64,000 nt of DNA from Anderseniella sp. (GTDB taxonomy: Bacteria > Pseudomonadota > Alphaproteobacteria > Rhizobiales > Aestuariivirgaceae), in NCBI GenBank assembly GCA_030626025.1, contig DAOUPT010000005.1, forward strand, positions 1 to 64,000, given 5' to 3'. A program made the position numbers and the translations under genes. Of this stretch, positions 18,003 to 28,603 are shown in pieces. Under the pieces are notes generated by a model, which searched no databases, was not told the DNA's origin, and was given only the letters and a program-made list of their open reading frames with translations. Every line of letters starts with the position of its first letter. Position 1 is the stretch's first letter.

Positions 18003-19229
18003 CTATTGACCAGAAACGCGCATGGAACCTGGCGTGCCAGGCAGTTTAATTTCTGTAGAAGTACCAAACGTACCGTCTTCATTCACCGGAATGACGGACA
18101 TCGTTGAACTGCCAAAATTACCAACATAGACGTATTTGTTATCTGCTGAAAACGCGATGCCTTCCGGAAAGCTTCCAACCTTGATGGTATCTGTCGGCGT
18201 TACAGTTTTCCCCTTGATACGCATCAAAGTAACTTCGCCGACTTCATTGTACCACCATGCATCCTTAGGTACGGCAAAACTGCCGCCAAGAAGAGTGACA
18301 GCCACCAGTGAACTGTCTGGACTGATGGCAATGCCTTCTGGCGCATCGCCAACTGTAATATGTTGCGAAACGATTGGCGGCGTAGCGGTTAGATCAATCA
18401 CGCTAACCGTCTTGTTATTGCCGTCCGAAGCAAAACCTTTATTTCCGATATTTGTCACCATTACGCGCTTGCCATCGCTGGACGCAGTCACTGTCCAGGG
18501 AAACAACCCCACTGGTAAATCACGCCCGGCATAGGTTACTTTGTTCTTTGTCTTATCGATAGATAATTCAGCTACCGAGTGTTCCGACAATTTCGCCGCA
18601 TACGCTCTCGTACCATCTGCAGTAATGGCCACACCCGTTATGTTCGCACCCATTTCAATGGTATCGACTATGGTAACCTTCGTTCCATCAATCGATAGAA
18701 CCGAAATGGTTGTGTCACTTCTGTTGGCGACAATCGCAAGAGTTCCATCAGGACTTATTGAAACTCCCGAAGGCCGTTTACCCAGCTCCAGCTTACTGAC
18801 AATGCGCATCGGACTAGTTGTTAGATCAAGGACCGTCAGAAAATTAGACGGGCCCATTTTCCAACCACCGCCTTCGACAGGTTTATTTTCCATGGCGTTA
18901 GCAACCAGTGCCAGTTTTTGGTCCGGCGTGATGGCAATATTTGTTGGCGGTCCGATAATTGAATTATCAACTTCCACGCTACCGACCAATTTTGGTTTAG
19001 CCGGGTTAGCAAGACTATAAAACTGCACAAGATCATGCCCCGGTTCAAGCGCCTTATAATTTTTACTCTCCTGGCTGTAGGTAAATTTATTATCAATACC
19101 AACGGCAAGTATTTGATCCGCCGCACTGACAACCGAACCCCCGCTCAGGAGTGCCAAAGTGAAAACCACTCCAGAACACAGAAATGATTTTGTTTGGTTT
19201 TTAATTGATGGGAATAAGACGTTTTTCAT
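18003..19229 (-). CDS. Secreted YVTN-type beta-propeller protein
   Basis: 408 residues with an N-terminal signal peptide ending near VVSAADQ (about residue 36). The mature part is made of repeated blades of the pattern P-x-G-I-A-I-(S/T)-P-D-x-x-x-(A/V)-x-V-A-N (for example GVSISPDGTLAIVANRSD, EGIAISPDSSLVAVT, EGIAFSADNKYVYVGNFGS), the YVTN/lactonase-like seven-blade fold. It is probably periplasmic and may bind a ligand or act as a lactonase-like enzyme; no catalytic residues can be assigned. It lies 20 bases downstream of the truncated RidA frame and probably shares promoter-operator copy 1. Confidence 0.8.
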   Translation of the reverse strand: MKNVLFPSIKNQTKSFLCSGVVFTLALLSGGSVVSAADQILAVGIDNKFTYSQESKNYKALEPGHDLVQFYSLANPAKPKLVGSVEVDNSIIGPPTNIAITPDQKLALVANAMENKPVEGGGWKMGPSNFLTVLDLTTSPMRIVSKLELGKRPSGVSISPDGTLAIVANRSDTTISVLSIDGTKVTIVDTIEMGANITGVAITADGTRAYAAKLSEHSVAELSIDKTKNKVTYAGRDLPVGLFPWTVTASSDGKRVMVTNIGNKGFASDGNNKTVSVIDLTATPPIVSQHITVGDAPEGIAISPDSSLVAVTLLGGSFAVPKDAWWYNEVGEVTLMRIKGKTVTPTDTIKVGSFPEGIAFSADNKYVYVGNFGSSTMSVIPVNEDGTFGTSTEIKLPGTPGSMRVSGQ

Positions 19230-19249: not shown

Positions 19250-19450
19250 TTATGACTTGGTTGCGATAAGAGAAATTTCTACCAGTGCATTTGAATCAGC
19301 CATTTTGGATTCCACACAAACACGCGCCGGTACGTTTTCAGGGTCAACCCATGTGACCCAAATCTCGTTCAAGGGGTCACGCAAGCGAATATCTACCACC
19401 CAGATTGAGGCTGACAGGATGTTAGACTTAGAGGTGCCTGCCATAGTCAT
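19250..19450 (-). pseudogene. N-terminally truncated RidA-family gene
   Basis: The 66-residue frame is the second half of a RidA/YjgF protein (IWVVDIRLRDPLNEIWVTWV, PARVCVESKMADSNALVEIS, ending ATKS). RidA proteins deaminate reactive enamine intermediates and are about 120 residues long; here the N-terminal half is missing. The first codons MTMAG and everything upstream are the same as at 22255, where they begin a different gene. So a deletion or recombination has joined a foreign start and promoter to a RidA remnant. It may still be translated as a short peptide, but loss of half the fold makes activity unlikely. Confidence 0.8.
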
Positions 19451-19507
19451 CTCGCGCCGGAAGGTTGAAGTTTGTTACTGAACCTCTTATAAACTGGTTA
19501 CTCTCTA

Positions 19508-19560
19508 TCTATGTACACCGACCACTCTCAACGCAAGTAAAAAAATAGTGATCGGTATTT
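19508..19560 (-). promoter_or_regulatory. Promoter-operator module, copy 1
   Basis: Read on the minus strand: half-site ATACCGATCACTA, then a -35-like TTGCGT, a 17-base spacer holding the second half-site AGAGTGGTCGGTGT, and a -10-like CATAGA (19508-19513). It belongs to a block of about 135 bases nearly identical to that upstream of the TetR gene at 22385, and it points into the RidA remnant and beta-propeller gene. The -10 is one base poorer than in copy 2. Confidence 0.6.
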
Positions 19561-19683
19561 AATTAAGTCGGAACCAATATCAGTCACGAGACGTTCCGAT
19601 TTTGATGGAATCGGTTCGGCCCGTTGTTCGCATCCAAGGTCAGGAAGAAACGCGCTGCTTCGTATCGACACCAACTGCAATAG

Positions 19684-19961
19684 CGCAGGCATTTGGATGA
19701 GGTTTTTGTCCAGATCAACGGTGAAACCTTCTATCTCTGGCGGGCGTCGATCATGAGGGTGAAGCGCTAAGTTGCTACAGAAATTTGCTGCCCTGCACGC
19801 TCCAATTCATAATCACTTCAACCAGGAACGTCATTTCTACAATCGTCAAAATTTTAAGTACAACCGATCTGTCGCTTTGGCAGAGTGGCGTCAACTTGCG
19901 ACCTGAAATGCTCTACCATAGGGCACAGTTTACGCTTTAATTATTGCTCTGACAGAACCCC
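19684..19961 (+). mobile_element. Remnant of an IS6-family insertion sequence
   Basis: From 19693 the codons read LDEVFVQINGETFYLWRA, then after a one-base loss VDHEGEAL, a core IS6/IS26 transposase patch containing the second catalytic-aspartate region. A deletion joins this to the C terminus, FAALHAPIHNHFNQERHFYN...WRQLAT and a stop at 19904-19906. The following bases end in TTGCTCTGACAGAACCCC (to 19961), matching the terminal inverted repeat expected for this family. The left end and most of the transposase are missing, so it cannot move. The part from 19561 to 19683 holds no intact frame. Confidence 0.85.
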
Positions 19962-19984
19962 AAATTCTATTCAAACAGCGATAG

Positions 19985-20974
19985 TCACCAAGTTCCGGTT
20001 TTCCCGAGAAAGGGTGATGGCTCAGGGGTGGTCCAGCGTAAAGGCATGGCCGATTTCAGGCGGATCGTTCGCTCGACATGGAAACGCACGACGCGCCGTG
20101 CCCCGGCGAAGGCATCGACTTCGGGGCCGTCCCAGATAATCTCTCCCCTGGTAGCCAGATATACGAGGTCGCCGTTATCCCAGTCGATGAACAACAGCCC
20201 GACGCGGGGTTCATTCGTCATGTTTCCGATCGTGTTGTAATATGCGTTGCCGACAAAATCCGGTGTGGTCAAAGTGCGCTTGTCATCAATTCGAACAAAT
20301 CCCGGCTTGCCACCCCGATGCGATACATCAGCCCCGGCGGACGGGCCGCTTGCATTACAGCTCGTGGAAGCTATAAAAAACGTATCCGCTTTTATGATTA
20401 ACTTGTAATCAGCAGAAGAAAGCGTTTCGCCATGAATGGCGCCTTCCGGCTCAGGAGGATATGAAAAGTCACTCACGAGTGCTGGTTTTCGCATCTGGAT
20501 ATACTTCGCACAATTGCCAAAGCTTTGCGTAACATCAACACAAAACCCCTCTTCTGTAACATGTGCAATCTTTCCATTAACCCGATTGCGTCGGCGTGTG
20601 GTCAATTCAAGGCCAAGGAGGCCTATGTCGGCGCCTGACTTGATGGCCGCATACAGCGGGTTATTGGCAAAGGGGCGTGCGGCGATTGTCAGGGTTCGGG
20701 AATCAGGCGAACTGACAAATCCCGGCGGACCGACAAGAATGCTCGCCCAGGGTTGCCCGGACGAATCGACAGCACCGATAAACATGAACGGCAATTGAGC
20801 ATAAAATTCGCGATGCTGGTCTGGCATGAATGAGCGGATCAACTTTCGCCCAACCATCTCCATCTTATCGCGAACACCAAGGTATTTCTGCACAGACTCC
20901 TCACCAGCATGAAATGGGCTTTGCGGGTGCGACCACCCTTCCGGGGCTCTCTTGTCGACGGCAGTATCTACCAA
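19985..20974 (-). CDS. Pyridoxamine 5'-phosphate oxidase-fold flavoprotein
   Basis: 329 residues with two split-barrel (PNPOx-like) halves. The first is marked by QLPFMFIGAVDSSGQPWASILVGPPGFV, the second by GFVRIDDKRTLTTPDFVGNAYYNTIGNMTNEPRVGLLFIDW. Such proteins bind FMN or another flavin and are often annotated as pyridoxamine-phosphate-oxidase family. In some genomes this module is fused to a ferredoxin-NADP reductase-like domain; here it stands alone. Its ATG overlaps the end of the SDR gene by seven bases, which indicates translational coupling. Confidence 0.8.
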   Translation of the reverse strand: MVDTAVDKRAPEGWSHPQSPFHAGEESVQKYLGVRDKMEMVGRKLIRSFMPDQHREFYAQLPFMFIGAVDSSGQPWASILVGPPGFVSSPDSRTLTIAARPFANNPLYAAIKSGADIGLLGLELTTRRRNRVNGKIAHVTEEGFCVDVTQSFGNCAKYIQMRKPALVSDFSYPPEPEGAIHGETLSSADYKLIIKADTFFIASTSCNASGPSAGADVSHRGGKPGFVRIDDKRTLTTPDFVGNAYYNTIGNMTNEPRVGLLFIDWDNGDLVYLATRGEIIWDGPEVDAFAGARRVVRFHVERTIRLKSAMPLRWTTPEPSPFLGKTGTW

Positions 20975-21630
20975 GGCAAACGCTCCCCGTTTGCGTGAAA
21001 GAACCCGCCAGTATCAGCCAGCGTAAGCTTATCGGTAAGTGCGATGAGTTGCGCTGCAGATTTATCTGCGGTCGTCATACCCTCGTTGCCGGTAAGGTTG
21101 GTCTTTACGAAACCGGGATGAAGCAAGAATACGCCAATGTTACGCGGTTTCAGGTCGATGGCCAGATTGACGCCTGCCATATTGATAGCGGCTTTCGATA
21201 TGCGGTAACCGTACTCACCACCGCGTCCATTATCTGCAAGCGAACCCACACGAGAAGAAATCAACGCGACTTTGGCAGCATCCTTCAACTTGTCTGAGAA
21301 TGCGTGCGTTATAGCGAGCGGGGCCAAGGCATTCACCTCGAACTGATAGCGGATGCGATCAATATCCATATCCTCAAAACTCTCTATGGTTCGTAATCCC
21401 GCATTGTTCACGAGAAGGTCGATGGAGCGATCATCAAGCTTTGAGGCAAGAACAGCGATGGCCTTGGCGTCGGTGACATCAATTCCCTCTAAAACCTCAA
21501 CACCCAACTCGGCTAGTTCGGGTGATGCAGTTCGGCATACGGCCAGAACCGCGTCACCACGTGCATGATACTGGCGGGTTAATTCCAGCCCTATACCCTT
21601 GTTCGCACCTGTAACAACAATTTGTTCCAT
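20968..21630 (-). CDS. Short-chain dehydrogenase/reductase (classical SDR)
   Basis: 220 residues. The cofactor motif TGANKGIG (7-14), NNAG (75-78), the catalytic serine region ISSRVGS (about 124-130) and YxxxK (Y142, K146) are all intact. It reduces or oxidises a carbonyl/alcohol using NAD(P); the length and sequence resemble C-factor/sniffer-type SDRs. It lies in the minus-strand unit VOC-SDR-PNPOx, which begins near promoter-operator copy 2. Confidence 0.87.
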   Translation of the reverse strand: MEQIVVTGANKGIGLELTRQYHARGDAVLAVCRTASPELAELGVEVLEGIDVTDAKAIAVLASKLDDRSIDLLVNNAGLRTIESFEDMDIDRIRYQFEVNALAPLAITHAFSDKLKDAAKVALISSRVGSLADNGRGGEYGYRISKAAINMAGVNLAIDLKPRNIGVFLLHPGFVKTNLTGNEGMTTADKSAAQLIALTDKLTLADTGGFFHANGERLPW

Positions 21631-21678
21631 AATATCATTGGGAAAAACTCTCCCATTCCTTTCAAGACTGAGGTTGGA

Positions 21679-22098
21679 TTAAGCTGGCGCGTTGGCAAAG
21701 AATTCGAAACGCAATCCGCCCGGAATTGTACAAATAAAATGGCGCGCCTGCGATCCGGCACCCGGCGGTTCTGGTTGAAACTCAATCTCAACCCCCGGCC
21801 AGTCATGCACACGAGAAAATACGACATCAAGCGCTGCACTGTCAGCAACCTTAAGTGCAATGTGGTGCAAGCCGATATTCCGCTTACGATCAAACGACGT
21901 TGCTTTGCCTTGGTTTTCAGCCCGCCACAGGGTTAATGTAATACTGCCGTCAGATAAAAACACTGCCGGATAATCGGCATTTTCACCAACCACGCGAAAT
22001 CCAAGTGCACCTTCAAGAAAGCTACGTGTTGGGTCAAGGTCAGCCACTGTAAAGCCAATATGGTGCGCGCCTTGGGTAAATGGGACGGTCTCTGTCAT
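21679..22098 (-). CDS. VOC-superfamily (glyoxalase/dioxygenase-like) protein
   Basis: 139 residues with the paired beta-alpha-beta-beta-beta fold. HHIGFTVADLDPTRSFLEGALGFRVV starts the first module and GLHHIALKVAD the second; potential metal ligands are the histidines of each start and a glutamate near the C terminus (LRFEFF). Substrates of this superfamily range from methylglyoxal adducts to antibiotics. It is the first intact gene of the three-gene minus-strand unit. Confidence 0.82.
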   Translation of the reverse strand: MTETVPFTQGAHHIGFTVADLDPTRSFLEGALGFRVVGENADYPAVFLSDGSITLTLWRAENQGKATSFDRKRNIGLHHIALKVADSAALDVVFSRVHDWPGVEIEFQPEPPGAGSQARHFICTIPGGLRFEFFANAPA

Positions 22099-22120
22099 TT
22101 AAATAATTCCAATTTGTCGA

Positions 22121-22255
22121 TTATAGGTTGTGTTCGGTATAAGCAGGCGCCACACGCTCAGCCTCTCGACCATTCCATGTGTTTTCTGTCAATGGAACCT
22201 TTTGGGCATCGGTTTCATCTGTGAATGGAGGCAAAGTAGGCCCTGCCATAGTCAT
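22121..22255 (-). pseudogene. N-terminal fragment of a DUF1348/NTF2-like gene
   Basis: The frame from ATG 22255 reads MTMAGPTLPPFTDETDAQKV, continues into ENTWNGREAERVAPAYTEHN and stops after 44 codons. This matches the start of DUF1348 (SnoaL/NTF2-like) proteins, which are about 150 residues and continue WRNRAEF...; the remainder is absent. It is the first frame behind promoter-operator copy 2 and lies 22 bases before the VOC gene. It may persist only as a leader peptide. Confidence 0.7.
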
Positions 22256-22312
22256 CTCGCGTCGGAAGGTTGAAGTTTGTTACTGAACCTGTTATAAACT
22301 GGTTACTCTCTA

Positions 22313-22362
22313 TCTATAAACACCGACCACTCTCAACGCAAGTGAAAAAGAGTGATCGGTAT
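22313..22362 (-). promoter_or_regulatory. Promoter-operator module, copy 2
   Basis: On the minus strand: half-site ATACCGATCACTCT (22349-22362), seven bases, -35-like TTGCGT (22336-22341), a 17-base spacer with half-site AGAGTGGTCGGTGT, and -10-like TATAGA (22313-22318). The half-sites form an inverted repeat that brackets the -35. It drives the DUF1348'-VOC-SDR-PNPOx unit and lies 23 bases before the divergent TetR gene, as expected for an operator of that regulator. Confidence 0.7.
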
Positions 22363-22384
22363 CTAATTAAGCCGGAACCATCTC

Positions 22385-22966
22385 ATGCGATACAGCACCA
22401 AACACAAGGAAGAGACCCGCCGCAAACTCCTCGACGCCGCGACCAGAAGGTTCACGGCGTTGGGGTATAATGGCTTGGGCGTCGACGGTCTGGCAAAGGA
22501 GGCGGGCGTTTCCAATGGAGCCTTTTATGGCAACTTCTCTTCCAAGGCTGAAGCGTTTCGCACAATTATGACCACAGAGCTGGATGCTCTTCGCGATGGC
22601 ATTGAGCGTTATCGTAGTGAATATGGCGATGACTGGCTTGCTCCATTCGCTGAATTCTATTTCAGTGATAATAAGCTAAACTGCTCCGAAAACACTTGTC
22701 CGTTACCTGCTTTTGTGCCGGAGGTGGCACGTGCTGACGAAGAGACGCGCGATGCATTTCAGTCAGAATTGTTGCGCATTCTCGATGCAATTACTGGAGG
22801 TTTGGACGACGTAACACAAGAAGAAGCCCGATCTCATGCCTGGACGATTTTGGCACTATTTGCAGGTGGTGTTCTGCTTGCACGTGCCGTACCAGACGAA
22901 AAGTTAACTCAACAAATTTCTGATACTGTTCGAGAAGCCGTCATGAAAGCTGCCGACAAAGATTAA
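22385..22966 (+). CDS. TetR-family regulator, paralogue 1
   Basis: 193 residues. The N-terminal TetR helix-turn-helix is clear (ETRRKLLDAATRRFTALGYN, then DGLAKEAGVSNGAFYGNFSSKAEAF, about residues 8-58). The C-terminal ligand domain has TCPLPAFVPEVARAD in common with paralogue 2. The first 62 residues differ from the protein at 24084 at only four positions, so both should recognise the same operator. It is divergent from the VOC-SDR-PNPOx unit with promoter-operator copy 2 between them and probably represses it. The ligand is unknown; the regulated enzymes suggest a reactive carbonyl or electrophile. Confidence 0.88.
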   Translation: MRYSTKHKEETRRKLLDAATRRFTALGYNGLGVDGLAKEAGVSNGAFYGNFSSKAEAFRTIMTTELDALRDGIERYRSEYGDDWLAPFAEFYFSDNKLNCSENTCPLPAFVPEVARADEETRDAFQSELLRILDAITGGLDDVTQEEARSHAWTILALFAGGVLLARAVPDEKLTQQISDTVREAVMKAADKD

Positions 22967-23015
22967 AGCCACACTGGTTAAAGCCTTTCATGATTTAGTC
23001 TAACGACGAATGGCT

Positions 23016-24017
23016 CTAATGTTTACTATGCATTGCCTTCCAGACTGATGGAGACAAACCGACGCGACGTCGGAATGCAGAGGTAAGGCGGCTGGCGGCT
23101 GGAAAACCGACTTCTCTGGTAACGGTTTTCAAGGGGACCCCGAACGCGATGAGGCCTTTTGCCCGTTCTACCCGAAGCTCTTCGATAAACGCTGCGGGCG
23201 AGCTTCCCATGCTTTCGGTGAAATGGCGCTGAAAAGTGCGCACACTTTGTCCTGTGTATCTCGCGAGAGTTTCGATAGTCAAATCCTGATCCAGATCTGA
23301 TTTGACCCAGGAAATCAAGTCGGCATATGGTGATGCAGCAGCGCTCTGGTGCTTTAATGGTGCTGAGAACTGGGCCTGGCTGCCAGGGCGACGAAGATAG
23401 ACGACCAGTTTGCGCGCAACTTCAGCGGCACGGTCCGGGCCAAGGTCCGCTTCGACCATTGCAAGGCTCATATCTATCCCTGCGGTCACACCAGCGGAGG
23501 TCCAAATGTACCCATCAACAACATAGATTGAATTCGAATCAACGTCCGTATCAGGATATCGCTCAGCCAATTCAGCGGCACGCGCCCAATGCGTGGCCGC
23601 ACGTTTGCCTTTTAACAACCCCCAATCTGCAAGGGCAAAGGCTCCCGTGCAGACAGATCCCCATCGTTGCGCGTGTTCAGTCGCCAAGCGCACCCAATTT
23701 CGAGTTTCGCCTTTAGCAATAAGTGCATTCAAGCCTTCCCGGTCGTGGCCGGATATCAACAGCGTATCGATGCTTTTTGCGGGTATATGCCTTATTGACT
23801 GGGAGTGCAGCTTGACACCTGAAGCTGTTTCGATCAATCCGCCATCAGGCGAAACAACGTTGATCATATATGGCTGGCACTTGCTGCGGGCATTGTTTGC
23901 ACTGCTGAAAACATCTGCCGGTCCTGTAACGTCGAGGGCCTGGACGCCATTCGAGGCGAGAATAACAATGTTGTGGATCATTGGCGTAAATATAACGGTC
24001 TTTGTCATTTGTGCCAA
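23016..24017 (-). CDS. GlxA-type transcriptional regulator (DJ-1/PfpI domain plus AraC HTH)
   Basis: 333 residues. The N-terminal DJ-1/PfpI-like domain (NIVILASNGVQALDVTGPADVFS to about residue 200) has a nucleophile-elbow cysteine C123 in SVCTGAFALA but serves as a sensor rather than a peptidase in this family. The C-terminal AraC/XylS domain has two HTH units (LTIETLARYTGQSVRTFQRHF and VPLKTVTREVGFPAASRLTSAF). The start could also be MTKTV at 24008 or MIHNI at 23981. It is flanked by the two TetR genes and diverges from paralogue 2, with only 66 bases between them. Confidence 0.87.
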   Translation of the reverse strand: MAQMTKTVIFTPMIHNIVILASNGVQALDVTGPADVFSSANNARSKCQPYMINVVSPDGGLIETASGVKLHSQSIRHIPAKSIDTLLISGHDREGLNALIAKGETRNWVRLATEHAQRWGSVCTGAFALADWGLLKGKRAATHWARAAELAERYPDTDVDSNSIYVVDGYIWTSAGVTAGIDMSLAMVEADLGPDRAAEVARKLVVYLRRPGSQAQFSAPLKHQSAAASPYADLISWVKSDLDQDLTIETLARYTGQSVRTFQRHFTESMGSSPAAFIEELRVERAKGLIAFGVPLKTVTREVGFPAASRLTSAFRRRVGLSPSVWKAMHSKH

Positions 24018-24083
24018 GTGTTTTTAGTGCAATGGTAATAGTAGGGCTTTCGCTCATCACCAAATCAAAACCGGAACCACTTC

Positions 24084-24677
24084 ATGCGATACAGTGACGA
24101 GCACAAGGAAGAGACCCGCCGCAAGCTCCTCAATGCCGCAACCAGGCGGTTTACCGCGCTGGGCTATAATGGCTTGGGCATTGACGGCCTGGCCAAGGAA
24201 GCAGGTGTCTCCAATGGAGCCTTTTATGGTAACTTTTCCTCCAAGGCCGAAGCCTTTCGCACAATAATGATCGCTGAGTTGGATAATCTTCGCAGAGGTA
24301 TTGATCGTCATCGCAGTGAATATGGCGACGATTGGCTTGTTGCATTTAACGAATTCTATTTTGGTGATGAGAAACTGGACGATCCCGAGAAGACTTGTCC
24401 GCTGCCAGCTTTTGCACCGGAAGTCGCGCGCGCGCAATCCGAAACACGCGACGCCTTCCAGTCAGAATTGTTACGCATCGTAGATGCTGTTACCGAAGGT
24501 CTGGACGACGACCTGAATGAAATGACGGAAAAGGACGTCCGAGCCCAAGCATGGACAATTTTAGCGTTGTTTACAGGCGGCACTCTGCTCGCTCGTGCTG
24601 TACCAAGTGAAAAACTATCCCGGCAAATTACCGACATCATGCGTGTAGAGGTTATAAAAGCTGCCGGAAAAAATTAA
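24084..24677 (+). CDS. TetR-family regulator, paralogue 2
   Basis: 197 residues, nearly the same as paralogue 1 in the DNA-binding domain (shared stretch DGLAKEAGVSNGAFYGNFSS) and in the middle of the ligand domain (TCPLPAF.PEVARA, ETRDAFQSELLRI). The last third diverges and is a little longer (DDDLNEMTEKDV). This indicates a duplication with kept operator specificity and changing ligand response. It lies upstream of promoter-operator copy 3, which drives the tautomerase-cupin pair. Confidence 0.88.
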   Translation: MRYSDEHKEETRRKLLNAATRRFTALGYNGLGIDGLAKEAGVSNGAFYGNFSSKAEAFRTIMIAELDNLRRGIDRHRSEYGDDWLVAFNEFYFGDEKLDDPEKTCPLPAFAPEVARAQSETRDAFQSELLRIVDAVTEGLDDDLNEMTEKDVRAQAWTILALFTGGTLLARAVPSEKLSRQITDIMRVEVIKAAGKN

Positions 24678-24804
24678 CAAGCCACCTCATTTGCCTTGCC
24701 TTTCAATACCTCCTACTCCCGATCCTTCCTCTATCTATTTTCCCCAAATAATTGGTGTGTAGAGCCGTAATTTCGCCATCGCGCCTCCATTTAGCGGCTT
24801 TTAA

Positions 24805-24871
24805 ACACCGGTCACTCTTTAATGCTTGCATAAAGAGAAGTCGGTGTGTATTGATAGAGAGTGATCGGTGT
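24805..24871 (+). promoter_or_regulatory. Promoter-operator module, copy 3
   Basis: Half-site ACACCGGTCACTCT (24805-24818), seven bases, -35-like TTGCAT (24826-24831), a 17-base spacer with AGAGAAGTCGGTGT, -10-like TATTGA (24849-24854), and a third half-site AGAGTGATCGGTGT (24858-24871). The order and spacing equal copies 1 and 2 on the opposite strand; the third half-site is extra. It points to the tautomerase and cupin genes. The rest of 24678-24992 has only the small frame at 24919. Confidence 0.7.
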
Positions 24872-24918: not shown

Positions 24919-25056
24919 ATGTCTTTGATGGGATCAATTCGGCGATCTCAATCGACATGCAAAAAGGCTGCTCAAATTAAAGGAATAGAACGATGCCTAG
25001 AATTCAAGTTACAGCCCCACAGGGCGCTCTTTCCAAACAGGACCAGGATGCGATGA
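24919..25056 (+). other. Possible upstream ORF before the tautomerase gene
   Basis: A 45-codon frame (MSLMGSIRRSQSTCKKAAQ...) starts five bases after a perfect AGGAGG (24908-24913), stronger than the AAAGGA site of the tautomerase. It overlaps the tautomerase start in another frame and stops at 25056. It could be the surviving start of a deleted gene or a regulatory upstream ORF; no homology is recognised. Confidence 0.3.
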
Positions 25057-25424
25057 TCTCGCGATTGTCAAATGCCGTGCTGAAATCCGAAGGTGCGCAG
25101 ATTGAGGATCCGGCGGCGCAGTCGCTAGTTTGGGCTGATTATGACGAAAGACCAGCAGGGTCTTCTTATGTCGGTGGCAAAAATCTCGACAAACCACCCT
25201 TCATTGTTTCTGTAACGACACCCCAAGGTGCACTCAATGACGGAACGCGCGCAGAACTCGTTGCAGAGATCGGCGCTATTGTTGACGATATTGTTGGGGC
25301 GTATGACGACCGGCTCAATCATTGGGTAATGCTTTATGAGGTCACCGATGGCGGCTGGGGTGGCGCAAGCCAAGTGTTCCGTCTGGGCGATATTCAAAAC
25401 GCGATGAACATCAAGGCCGCCTAA
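24993..25424 (+). CDS. Tautomerase-superfamily protein with two 4-OT-like modules
   Basis: 143 residues. The initiator Met is followed by Pro (MPRIQVTAPQGALS), the hallmark N-terminal catalytic base of 4-oxalocrotonate tautomerases once Met is removed. A second module starts near residue 68 (PPFIVSVTTPQGALNDGTR) and repeats the TxPQGAL pattern, so the protein is an internal duplication (fused dimer). Substrates of the superfamily include oxo-enoates and haloacrylates. It lies 130 bases downstream of promoter-operator copy 3, with a periplasmic cupin next in the same direction. Confidence 0.78.
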   Translation: MPRIQVTAPQGALSKQDQDAMISRLSNAVLKSEGAQIEDPAAQSLVWADYDERPAGSSYVGGKNLDKPPFIVSVTTPQGALNDGTRAELVAEIGAIVDDIVGAYDDRLNHWVMLYEVTDGGWGGASQVFRLGDIQNAMNIKAA

Positions 25425-25465: not shown

Positions 25466-26158
25466 ATGAAAACTTCTACATTCATGGCCGCTGTGGTCGC
25501 CACTACTGTGGCATTTGCTGGCCTGGCGCACGCCGAGGATACAAAAACTGATGGCCAGATTCTGCTTTCAGTGGATTTCGAACCACGCAACGTTGATCTG
25601 ATTGAGGTTGGTGATTTTCACTTCTTGCCCGGTCAAAAAGGCCCGACTCATACCCATGATGCTCCTGCAATTGGTTATGTTTCACAGGGTACTATCTACT
25701 ATCAGGTTGAAGGACAAGCTGCACAAATCCTGAAGACTGGAGATGCCTTTTTCGAGCCGACCACCAGCCGCATCATGCATTTTGACAATGCATCCAAAAC
25801 TGAAAAGGCAGTCTTTACCGACTTTAACCTTCAGCGAAAAGGCGAGCCATTCATCAGCTTTGAGAAGCCTTTGACCGAAAAGATTGATCGACGCTCTTTT
25901 CCCACTATCAATTTCGGTGGTCGAAGCGTGAAAAAGGTTGAAGCCTTTTCGAAAACAATCGGCAAGGGAAAGAGTTCAACCAGTAAAGTCAGTGAACCGG
26001 TTCTTGGCTACGTTGCTGATGGCACAATTGTCTTGAAAATCGGAAATGAAAAGCCAGTCGAGATCAAGCGTGGACGAACCTTCTTTCAACCCGCTGGCAC
26101 ATCGATCAAGATCAGCGCGACAGAAAGCGCAAAAGTAATCAGCTTCCACCTCCGTTAG
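25466..26158 (+). CDS. Exported bicupin protein
   Basis: 230 residues. A signal peptide (MKTSTFMAAVVATTVAFAGLAHAED) is followed by two cupin barrels: the first with HFLPGQKGPTHTHDAPAIGYVSQG and PTTSRIMHFDN, the second with GYVADGTIVLKIG and FFQPAGTSIKIS. Histidine metal ligands (HTHD) are present in the first barrel but not obvious in the second, which may be structural. AAAGGA sits before the start. It is probably expressed with the tautomerase 42 bases upstream and acts in the periplasm; the ligand is unknown. Confidence 0.75.
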   Translation: MKTSTFMAAVVATTVAFAGLAHAEDTKTDGQILLSVDFEPRNVDLIEVGDFHFLPGQKGPTHTHDAPAIGYVSQGTIYYQVEGQAAQILKTGDAFFEPTTSRIMHFDNASKTEKAVFTDFNLQRKGEPFISFEKPLTEKIDRRSFPTINFGGRSVKKVEAFSKTIGKGKSSTSKVSEPVLGYVADGTIVLKIGNEKPVEIKRGRTFFQPAGTSIKISATESAKVISFHLR

Positions 26159-26490: not shown

Positions 26491-27180
26491 TTATCTGCCC
26501 TTCAGCCTTTTATCTGTATTTTCGGAAAAACCCTTTACAGCTTTTTTGGCAAAAGCCTCTCGCCAATTTTTTGATAACGCATTGAACTCAGCAAGCTCGG
26601 CAGCGATAGCAGTGTCAAGACGCGGGTTAAAGCGGGCATGAATAAGGCGTTGCAATGACCAGTCCATGTGGATGCGTTCGATGACTTCCATTTTATCACC
26701 AACTTTGACCATGCCGTTTTCCAGAACCCGGTAATACCAACCTGTAAATCCAGTTTTCTGAAACTGGGCAGCCATTTTGTTGAGGCCGGTATGGGCATTA
26801 AGTTTCCAGCACGGTTGGCGCCCCTGACATACTTGTACTGTTGCCGACCCAAGCGACAATACATCGCCAAGATGCAAGTTTTCTTCCGTGAGGCCGGTTG
26901 TCGAGATATTCTCACCAAAGCATCCAGCCCGAAATTGTGCGGCAGCTTCTGGAAATGTATCGCGCCAAAAATCCATATGCTCAGATGCATAATGGTGGAT
27001 GGCTTTCTCGGGCCCGCCATGCACAGCAATATCTGCTTGCTGATCTTCCACAAAACCATTTGTTTCTATATGCAGTGGTCCGTCAACTGGTTGTTTGGCA
27101 ATCGCTGAAGGTGGTTTGTCCGGCCAAAGGTTTTTTATTTTGCCGACAAAAAGGCCCGCTACAATAGCGCTGTCACTCAT
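26491..27180 (-). CDS. MOSC-domain protein, YiiM type
   Basis: 229 residues. The MOSC core is clear: VDGPLHIETNGFVEDQQADIAVHGGPEKAIHHYASEHMDFW, then GCFGENISTTGL and the conserved cysteine patch VCQGRQPCWKLN, followed by a C-terminal 3-alpha extension as in YiiM. These proteins handle molybdenum cofactor-linked sulfur chemistry or reduce N-hydroxylated compounds with partner reductases. It lies 30 bases downstream of the MarR gene and is probably co-transcribed with it. Confidence 0.85.
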   Translation of the reverse strand: MSDSAIVAGLFVGKIKNLWPDKPPSAIAKQPVDGPLHIETNGFVEDQQADIAVHGGPEKAIHHYASEHMDFWRDTFPEAAAQFRAGCFGENISTTGLTEENLHLGDVLSLGSATVQVCQGRQPCWKLNAHTGLNKMAAQFQKTGFTGWYYRVLENGMVKVGDKMEVIERIHMDWSLQRLIHARFNPRLDTAIAAELAEFNALSKNWREAFAKKAVKGFSENTDKRLKGR

Positions 27181-27210
27181 TTCGTTTTCTCCAGAAGGTG
27201 TAAATTATGC

Positions 27211-27762
27211 TTATGCTGTAATTTCGTGCTCAAAGCAGATTTGGGTTGTTTCTGGCCGAGCAAGGGGGACATTGAGCAAGGCGCAGTATGGGGCGTTAGA
27301 CTTTCTGTGGTGGTGTTGGCAAGTTGCACACACACCAAAGCTGCGATCACCACGCGCCCGCAAAAGCTCCTTAACGAAGCCTTTCAGGTTTTGCGCCAAT
27401 TGATCAACTTGTCTTTTATCCATTTGGGCCAATGCAGCACCGATGGATGTTTCAAAGTCGAACGCGTCTTGTCCCTTTGCTGTGAGGGAGTAACTGGTTC
27501 TGCGCCGGTCAGTTTCAGATTTCTGTTCTTCAACAAGCCCCTTGCGGGTCAGTGCTTTTAACGTGCCCGAGACGGTTCCGCGCATGGCCGATAAATATTC
27601 TGCAACCTGTGACGGGGCCCGGGAATACTGGTTGGCCTTTGCCAGATAAGAAAGCGCTGCAAGTTGAGCCGGGTTGAGGTCCCCCACCCAATGCTCGGCG
27701 GCACTGATCCGCGATAGTCGATCAATCAGATCCTGGATTTCGGTGTGTGGATTTTTTTTCAT
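27211..27762 (-). CDS. MarR-family regulator with a C-terminal four-cysteine motif
   Basis: 183 residues. The winged-helix part covers about residues 28-105 (QVAEYLSAMRGTVSGTLKALTRKGLVEE, DRRRTSYSLTAKG). After a helical linker, the C terminus carries C145-x2-C148, C160 and C176 with several histidines (QHHHRK), suggesting a bound metal or Fe-S cluster and hence redox or metal sensing. It is divergent from the secreted protein at 27854; the 91-base gap should hold its operator. It precedes the MOSC gene. Confidence 0.82.
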   Translation of the reverse strand: MKKNPHTEIQDLIDRLSRISAAEHWVGDLNPAQLAALSYLAKANQYSRAPSQVAEYLSAMRGTVSGTLKALTRKGLVEEQKSETDRRRTSYSLTAKGQDAFDFETSIGAALAQMDKRQVDQLAQNLKGFVKELLRARGDRSFGVCATCQHHHRKSNAPYCALLNVPLARPETTQICFEHEITA

Positions 27763-27853
27763 AAATACATAATAGCGAGTCAGAATTACTATTGCAATAT
27801 TTTCGACTCGGTATTATATAGGATTTCTACGTTAATCTAAAATGGAGTTTAAA

Positions 27854-28603
27854 ATGAACGTTCTCACTCTCGGTGTTCTGGCCCTAACCCTCTCAGCATC
27901 TGCTGTATTGGCTGATGCCAGCCACGCAATCAATCAGGAAGGCGCTGTCAAATCGGCTGCCGACAAATCCAAAACCGCATCATTTGACATTCTTGCTGCC
28001 CATGTTCATCGCAAAGGCCGCACAGTAACGTTCCACATGACCACCAATGGCGATGCTGGTGCTAAAACCCCATCGCCAGTCGGCAAGCTTGCCGGGGCTC
28101 CTGTTTATGGCTATGTCTGGCCAACCTCACTTGACCCTTCAACTGTCGGGTTTGAAGGAAAAACCGGTATCCTTGCATTGGCGGCAACAAGTCATCCCGA
28201 CTTTGATGACACGCCATTATATGATGAAAATGCTGATGGCGATTTAGCCAATGACGGCAAGCTTTGGCACAGTCACTGGGTTGTACTGACCCCCACCAAA
28301 GCCTGTGGCGAGGGCGCATTGGCGGTCCGCGACATTCCAAAGGGCGAAACACCCAAAATGCCTGCCACATGGCCCGGCCTGCCTATTTTTATAGACAGTC
28401 CCGGTTACACCCCGCAAATCAGCGGTGCAGAGGTGAAGGTGATTGTACCATTTGCTGATCCAGAAACAGCAAAATATGCGAGCTACGATGGTGTGACAGC
28501 GGCCATGAAGGTCAATGCCAACATCCATGCACCATTGCTTTGTGTTACCGATGTTTTTGATGTTGCATCTGGTAATCTGAGTTTGCCAGGTAAAGTCAAG
28601 TAA
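27854..28603 (+). CDS. Secreted protein of unknown function
   Basis: 249 residues. MNVLTLGVLALTLSASAVLADA is a signal peptide. The mature part has GYVWPTSLDPSTVGF, a DENADGDLANDGKLWHSHWVVL stretch that looks like a calcium- or metal-binding turn, and two cysteines (ACGEG, LLCVTD). No family is recognised with confidence. The start at 27854 has GGAG six bases upstream; the ATG at 27842 has none. It is divergent from the Cys-rich MarR regulator and is the likely target of that regulator. A strong terminator follows. Confidence 0.65.
   Translation: MNVLTLGVLALTLSASAVLADASHAINQEGAVKSAADKSKTASFDILAAHVHRKGRTVTFHMTTNGDAGAKTPSPVGKLAGAPVYGYVWPTSLDPSTVGFEGKTGILALAATSHPDFDDTPLYDENADGDLANDGKLWHSHWVVLTPTKACGEGALAVRDIPKGETPKMPATWPGLPIFIDSPGYTPQISGAEVKVIVPFADPETAKYASYDGVTAAMKVNANIHAPLLCVTDVFDVASGNLSLPGKVK

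Follow-up and report, generated by a model that had tools for sequence, protein, structure and literature searches.

A 64,000-nucleotide stretch of the Anderseniella sp. assembly GCA_030626025.1 (contig DAOUPT010000005.1, positions 1 to 64,000; the window hereafter) encodes two paralogous TetR regulators, TetR1 and TetR2, and carries three promoter modules, each with an array of three operator-like elements. We favour, with fair though not high confidence from the sequence, the view that TetR1 and TetR2 are repressors of an inducible response to reactive compounds and act through these arrays; the array-controlled genes probably constitute a little-studied chemical-stress response. This view is built on the array and its geometry, the register of its -35 element, its recurrence in one group of TetR genes, the kinds of its partner genes, and a conserved cysteine.

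The modules lie where the original prediction placed them, and the described order of a half-site, TTGC(A/G)T, a 17-base spacer holding the opposite half-site and a -10-like hexamer is seen. The seven-base gap given before TTGC(A/G)T is present in modules 2 and 3, but is eight bases in module 1. The elements are predicted to be whole 14-bp palindromic TetR operators instead of half-sites, because single elements in relatives are perfect or near-perfect 14-bp palindromes, and there are three of them per module rather than two, the third having been missed in modules 1 and 2. Module 1 (19491..19558, minus strand) consists of O3 at 19491-19504 (AAACTGGTTACTCT), O2 at 19515-19528 and O1 at 19545-19558 (ATAGTGATCGGTAT), with start spacings of 30 and 24 bp; its minus-strand promoter has the -35 hexamer TTGCGT, 2 bp from O2, and the -10-like hexamer CATAGA. 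Module 2 (22296..22362, minus strand) has O3 at 22296-22309, identical to that of module 1, O2 at 22320-22333 and O1 at 22349-22362, spaced 29 and 24 bp; its minus-strand promoter (TTGCGT and TATAGA) lies between tetR1 on the plus strand and a VOC-SDR-flavoprotein unit on the minus strand. Module 3 (24805..24871, plus strand) faces a tautomerase-cupin pair, with O1 at 24805-24818, O2 at 24834-24847 and O3 at 24858-24871, again spaced 29 and 24 bp, and a plus-strand promoter of TTGCAT and TATTGA. The operator order is O3-O2-O1 in modules 1 and 2 and is inverted, O1-O2-O3, in module 3. On the transcribed strand of all three modules the -35 hexamer ends 2 bp before O2 and the -10-like hexamer starts 1 bp after it, with O2 lying within the 17-bp promoter spacer and nearly filling it. 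The window operator AGAGTGATCGGTAT is a composite of two half-types. An automatic choice of the best TTGACA match picked TTGAGA, TTGAGA and TTTAAT as -35 elements; the register comparison favours TTGCGT, TTGCGT and TTGCAT.

The three modules had been taken as independent copies. Modules 1 and 2, however, are one recent duplication of about 140 bp (copy 1, 19437..19576; copy 2, 22242..22380), 95% identical over 108 nt and 92% over 36 nt, and the window therefore holds two independent cases of the array, not three. Module 3 and module 2 are 75% identical over 69 nt, in opposite orientation.

How unusual is such an array? A scan of the whole window put the three modules in the top three places, each scoring 40/42 with 33 as the best score outside these regions, by a scoring built partly on window sequences, from which one of its half-types comes. 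An independent check was provided by an operator matrix built, without the window, from 30 operators in 11 relatives: across window positions it ranked O1 of module 1 first and O1 of module 2 fifth, and the remaining seven window operators from 60 to about 1,450, low ranks that we attribute to the absence of the AGAG and ACAC half-types from the 11 relatives. The 3,715,272-base genome has five exact copies of AGAGNNRTCGGTRT, all of them within the three modules. With one mismatch allowed, the sequence has 48 matches in the genome (window included) versus 60 for a reversed-pattern control, so that single operators elsewhere are at background; ATA-type sites are likewise at control level (32 versus 52 for the control). 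The genome search with the spaced pattern, suggested by the original prediction, was run with O1-O2 pair patterns of up to three mismatches. Spacing 29 gave modules 2 and 3 only, with two control hits; besides module 1, spacing 30 gave only two hits, of three mismatches each, again with two in the control. No credible array was found elsewhere in the genome with these patterns, and the regulon would be confined to this locus as far as they show. A protein scan of the contigs of the same genome returned one distant locus only.

The array recurs upstream of related TetR genes in other Proteobacteria, beside genes for enzymes of a detoxification kind. The searches covered 100 relatives for TetR1, 385 genomes of the class for TetR2 and, with a 13-row profile (both window TetRs and 11 relatives with at least 100 bits), 398 genomes of the phylum; the profile search added the loci L111 (of the same genus as L077), L113 and L114, while L112 repeats L077 and was dropped. 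A match of at least 12/14 to ATAACGATCGTTAT was found in 8 of the 11 relatives of the array group versus 1 of the 43 other rows (54 rows), and, among the added loci, in 3/3 new group members versus 0/24 others; at least three loci are counted twice in the non-group rows (L030/L081, L032/L117, L089/L138). Because this plain scan did not pick up the AGAG-type arrays at L071 and L072, scoring by half-types was written. At 13 of 14 loci the array score upstream of the related TetR gene exceeds the maximum (32) of 680 mononucleotide shuffles, the 14-locus scoring having been written after all 14 loci had been seen. With the scoring fixed beforehand, named plasmid loci linked to tautomerase genes beat all 300 shuffles each in 9/9 cases; five of the nine are from Rhizobium, and the one in R. 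phaseoli closely resembles L072 (96 of 121 upstream columns). The ten named TetR loci were chosen from 410 and 71 records. Three other TetR genes were scored: for a second Methylocystis TetR, 4 of 300 shuffles did as well, whereas two TetRs of Sphingomonas scored at chance (276/300 and 199/300 shuffles as high).

The geometry recurs together with the operators. Operator spacings in the relatives are 28-30 and 20-27 bp (searched over 27-31 and 20-27), and in 20 of 23 relatives 1-2 bp separate the TTG of the -35 element from O2, the exceptions being L070, L029 and Caballeronia; shuffled -35/O2 gaps gave a mean of 1.6/23 and a maximum of 7/23 in 1,000 rounds. The automatic array choice in Caballeronia looks shifted and was kept as scored. 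All three window modules have the group geometry of three 14-bp operators, spacings and -35 register, which L070 lacks. Perfect stand-alone palindromes occur as ATAACGATCGTTAT in several relatives and as AGAGCGATCGCTCT in Burkholderia arboris and R. johnstonii. No published account of this three-operator array was found in literature searches, which is weak evidence of absence as subscription journals lay mostly outside them; two papers were set aside, one on an Acidovorax TetR that in its consulted part concerns pqiAB (PMC4204640) and one that is unrelated as far as the part consulted goes (PMC8552027).

The genes divergent from the array-bearing TetR genes are of few kinds. Of the 14 loci, 4 have a tautomerase-like divergent gene, 8 a YdhR-like one (L027, L028, L073, L075, L076, L077, L111 and L113, all encoding two-domain proteins) and 2 neither (L070 and L029). 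Pfam, applied to three of the four tautomerase-like proteins, matched L071 at E 0.032, which is below cut-off, and gave nothing for L074 and L114; applied to one of the eight YdhR-like proteins it matched PF08803 (E 2.9e-16), and the other calls are by sequence likeness; several of the eight YdhR-like proteins have a signal-like N-terminus. In the named plasmid loci the divergent gene is tautomerase-like in 9/9, four by annotation and five by likeness. A VOC-family gene comes next in L071, L072 and L074, as well as in R. leguminosarum, R. johnstonii, R. phaseoli, Rhizobium C104 and, by likeness, Caballeronia. In the TetR tree, 25 array-group rows, including TetR2 (without its own array) and L070 (with O1 only), fall on one side of a branch with support 97/84 that is present in 94% of bootstrap trees. 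The group splits into a branch of nine, made up of eight YdhR-linked rows and L029, and a branch of 16 with the tautomerase-linked rows, L070, and TetR1 and TetR2 as sisters; an array-less Sphingomonas TetR adjoins the group. A guess from a single genome thus becomes a regulator-operator code that can be tested across species, defined by TetR group, operator, geometry and kinds of partner gene, and one assay of it could reveal the triggers of many tautomerase-like and YdhR-like genes whose annotation is poor.

TetR1 (22385..22966, plus strand; 193 amino acids) and TetR2 (24084..24677, plus strand; 197 amino acids, 77% identical to TetR1, no array directly upstream) both match PF00440 above its cut-off, and TetR_N is found in 13/13 group members examined. 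The C-terminal domain is weakly LmrA/YxaF-like: PF21993 scores 25.9 bits in TetR1 and 22.3 bits in TetR2, below the cut-off of 27, and reaches E 0.01 or better in 9 of the 13. A HopBA1 match of one TetR was taken as chance. The two genes arose by gene duplication, with non-synonymous (dN) and synonymous (dS) divergence of 0.14 and 1.30, and in view of these values this duplication is probably older than the copying of the module. Their DNA-binding domains, as had been noted from the sequence, are nearly identical (58 of the first 62 residues, with dN 0.036 and dS 0.98; the region SNGAFYGNF is identical), and the two paralogues would be fit to bind a shared operator. Cys105 of TetR1 is kept in 16/16 array-group rows and 61/64 other TetR rows, and the cysteine present in both window TetRs aligns with Cys106 of E. 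coli NemR.

On the minus strand, the first intact gene beyond module 2 encodes a VOC (glyoxalase superfamily) protein (21679..22098), followed by an SDR oxidoreductase (20968..21630) and a PPOX-type flavin mononucleotide (FMN) flavoprotein (19985..20974), in which PNPOx_N matches in two stretches and TIGR04025 stays below its cut-off. Module 3 faces, on the plus strand, a tautomerase-superfamily protein (24993..25424) and a cupin (25466..26158). The former has no match in Pfam, Tautomerase included; it starts Met-Pro, Pro follows the initiator Met in 5/5 aligned rows, and its structural model (predicted local distance difference test score 78.5) resembles cis-CaaD and fused 4-OT folds, the best PDB match being cis-CaaD at E 7.6e-9 with a template-modelling score of about 0.65. 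The cupin has Cupin_2 at residues 51-112 and, by eye, a signal-like N-terminus; a second cupin half was not detected by Pfam. A beta-propeller of the Lactonase/YncE-like kind (18003..19229, minus strand), also with a signal-like N-terminus by eye, lies about 270 nt beyond module 1.

How far do these genes resemble the array-linked ones elsewhere? Rhizobium, Methylocystis, Methylobacter, Caballeronia and Burkholderia arboris plasmid loci share with the window a related TetR, the same array and a divergent tautomerase-like gene, with VOC next in several; against the one array examined at each of them, there are three arrays, two TetRs and extra target genes in the window, and their tautomerase and VOC proteins are at best distant homologues of those in the window. 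A tblastn search with 12 window proteins at 1e-5 in 55 loci, the window itself (L069) included, recovered the TetRs and, among their neighbours, a small number of SDR or DJ-1/AraC genes, with no match for the remaining proteins; the window cupin and beta-propeller matched neither the 54 non-window loci nor any of 11 sequences compared directly. The fullest match in gene content is L143, on a plasmid of Methylocystis sp. MJC1. Within about 8 kb of its array are homologues of the window TetR, PPOX (36%), DJ-1/AraC (33%) and tautomerase (22%) proteins, the last being a second, non-divergent tautomerase, and within about 10 kb are the array TetR, two tautomerase-like genes, gloA, PPOX-type, DJ-1 and AraC-type genes and a second TetR. 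The single response envisaged by the original prediction is thus borne out in part: the link between tautomerase and array recurs elsewhere and that of VOC holds at the superfamily level, but the beta-propeller is linked weakly, since its connection to module 1 runs through a leader of about 270 nt with a broken RidA-like gene.

We propose that one TetR dimer would bind each 14-bp palindrome. A dimer on O2 would cover the spacer between the -35 and -10 elements of the enzyme gene and one on O3, just past the -10, would cover the start region, with O1 behind the -35 as the upstream edge, which in module 2 lies near the tetR1 start. A single array could thus shut an enzyme unit, and that of module 2 would shut tetR1 too. 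TetR1 and TetR2 most likely read the same operators and would jointly repress the VOC-SDR-flavoprotein and tautomerase-cupin units, and perhaps also the beta-propeller. Release would most likely be brought about by a reactive compound (an electrophile, a quinone-like compound or reactive chlorine), possibly by way of Cys105, and would allow small detoxifying enzymes to be produced. Binding, repression, co-regulation by both TetRs and the inducer are all predictions in this scheme. The VOC, tautomerase, YdhR, SDR and PPOX families, by their general character, would fit the handling of reactive carbonyls or quinone-like compounds. In a bolder form, to which we hold only tentatively, the system would be one member of an undescribed, Proteobacteria-wide family of reactive-compound responses with one TetR group, tautomerase- and YdhR-linked branches, a middle operator filling the promoter spacer and NemR-like cysteine sensing, and here the switch would have spread by copying to three promoters, governed by two paralogues that are diverging.

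A known system to compare is NemR. In E. coli, nemRA-gloA responds to reactive electrophiles and to reactive chlorine; Cys106 of NemR senses reactive chlorine through Lys175, and Cys21 and Cys116 serve the electrophile response, according to the consulted part of the source (PMC7464077). The window TetRs are like NemR in having a cysteine at the aligned place, and E. coli nemR adjoins an FMN-type reductase gene and gloA; they differ in the PPOX type of the flavoprotein and in the three-operator array, and NemR stands far off on a long tree branch.

Several observations weigh against our view. The position of NemR Lys175 is Arg in both window TetRs, and their cysteine aligns with the chlorine-sensing Cys106, the electrophile response falling to Cys21 and Cys116 (roles as given in the part of PMC7464077 consulted); because the cysteine is conserved across the wider family, Cys105 may be structural. 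The closest TetR (L070, 57%) has only O1, with an array score of 29 that is within the shuffles, and O2 is degenerate in L076, L077 and L111. Three genomes of the same genus have no close homologue (best E 3.7e-7), which leaves the whole gene set without a test in a near relative. The module hexamers are poor by E. coli standards, and an E. coli-consensus scan flagged none of the modules (10 promoters in the region versus 10.3 expected). The link through tautomerase and VOC, first assumed to be strong, was weakened by direct sequence comparison. By tblastn at 1e-5, neither window protein matches anything in the 54 non-window loci. The window tautomerase is 20-27% identical to array-linked ones in one comparison and, leaving aside short alignments, 16-27% identical in the best alignments of the 11-sequence test (best E 1e-6); its closest relative found is a B. 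arboris protein (32%) that is not array-linked, with no array within 4 kb. The window VOC does not align with array-linked VOCs in direct comparison, so its link stands at the superfamily level only. Finally, tetR2 lacks an array of its own, and the TetR2 branch is about four times as long as that of TetR1.

Among the alternatives, the one that survives best concerns module 1, which may be a non-functional leftover of the duplication near an IS6-type remnant, with the beta-propeller outside the regulon; we give this a serious, if minority, chance. The copy of about 140 bp extends into the leader up to an MTMAG start common to both copies. In the module 1 leader this start is joined to the C-terminal part of a truncated RidA-family frame (19250..19450, minus strand, 66 codons); where copy 2 runs on, the module 2 leader holds a DUF1348 remnant (22121..22255, minus strand, 44 codons), whose NCBIfam lasso-peptide match (E 0.34) was taken as chance. 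An IS6 transposase fragment lies about 125 bp from module 1. All three operators and the -35 element of module 1 are nevertheless intact at 40/42, and its O1 is the best matrix match in the window. The fragment itself, of IS6/IS240 type (DEVFVQINGETFYLWRA, at about 19684-19767, plus strand), sits between module 1 and the flavoprotein gene and may have a bearing on the origin of the duplication.

Next comes the possibility, which we regard as rather improbable, that the array and repressors are as proposed but are induced by a non-reactive aromatic from plants or soil, such as a flavonoid, held in a ligand pocket, with the enzymes degrading it and Cys105 being structural. The known parallel is LmrA/YxaF (QdoR) of Bacillus subtilis, whose targets include a cupin dioxygenase, QdoI. 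According to the title of a 2007 report by Hirooka, LmrA and YxaF are said to be two TetR repressors with one regulon in common. The window is similar in its two TetRs, in having more than one operator per promoter and in having a cupin among the predicted targets, and the weak LmrA/YxaF-like likeness of the C-terminal domain points the same way, as does the share of Rhizobium (64 of 71) among the plasmid records of one search. In the part of the source consulted, QdoR represses from a pair of operators at PqdoI and a single one at PqdoR, and quercetin lifts this repression (PMC8481877). Set against this, the window cupin finds no quercetinase among its six PDB sequence matches, and partner enzymes elsewhere are mostly tautomerase-like, YdhR-like or VOC. 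The window TetRs further differ from LmrA/YxaF in that the domain similarity is below cut-off, that three operators stand at 29 and 24 bp, and that array targets are of the tautomerase, VOC and YdhR kinds.

It is unlikely, to a slightly greater degree, that TetR2 has diverged so far as not to repress these promoters, having another ligand, a role as heterodimer partner or no function. The missing upstream array and the longer branch would agree with this, as would dN of 0.20 from residue 63 on, but the near-identity of the first 62 residues argues against it. Least probable by far is a single pair of half-sites around the -35 element of each module, to which one TetR dimer, or two forming a bridge, would bind: window sequences do resemble inverted half-sites, but the element is present three times per module and is a perfect or near-perfect palindrome by itself in relatives.

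Outside the three units, between the two tetR genes, lies a gene for a DJ-1/PfpI-AraC (FtrA-like) regulator (23016-24017, minus strand); in Methylocystis (33%) and B. arboris (26%), homologues of it are found close to tautomerase genes. An operator-like TATAACGGTCTTTGTC at 23991-24006, which falls within the 5' end of this AraC-type gene some 92 bp ahead of tetR2, is the second-best window position by the relatives' operator matrix. Downstream of the cupin, the region 26491-28603, in which the window-wide scan placed no top-ranked array, encodes a MOSC protein, a protein that is MarR-like by eye and a protein with a signal-like N-terminus.

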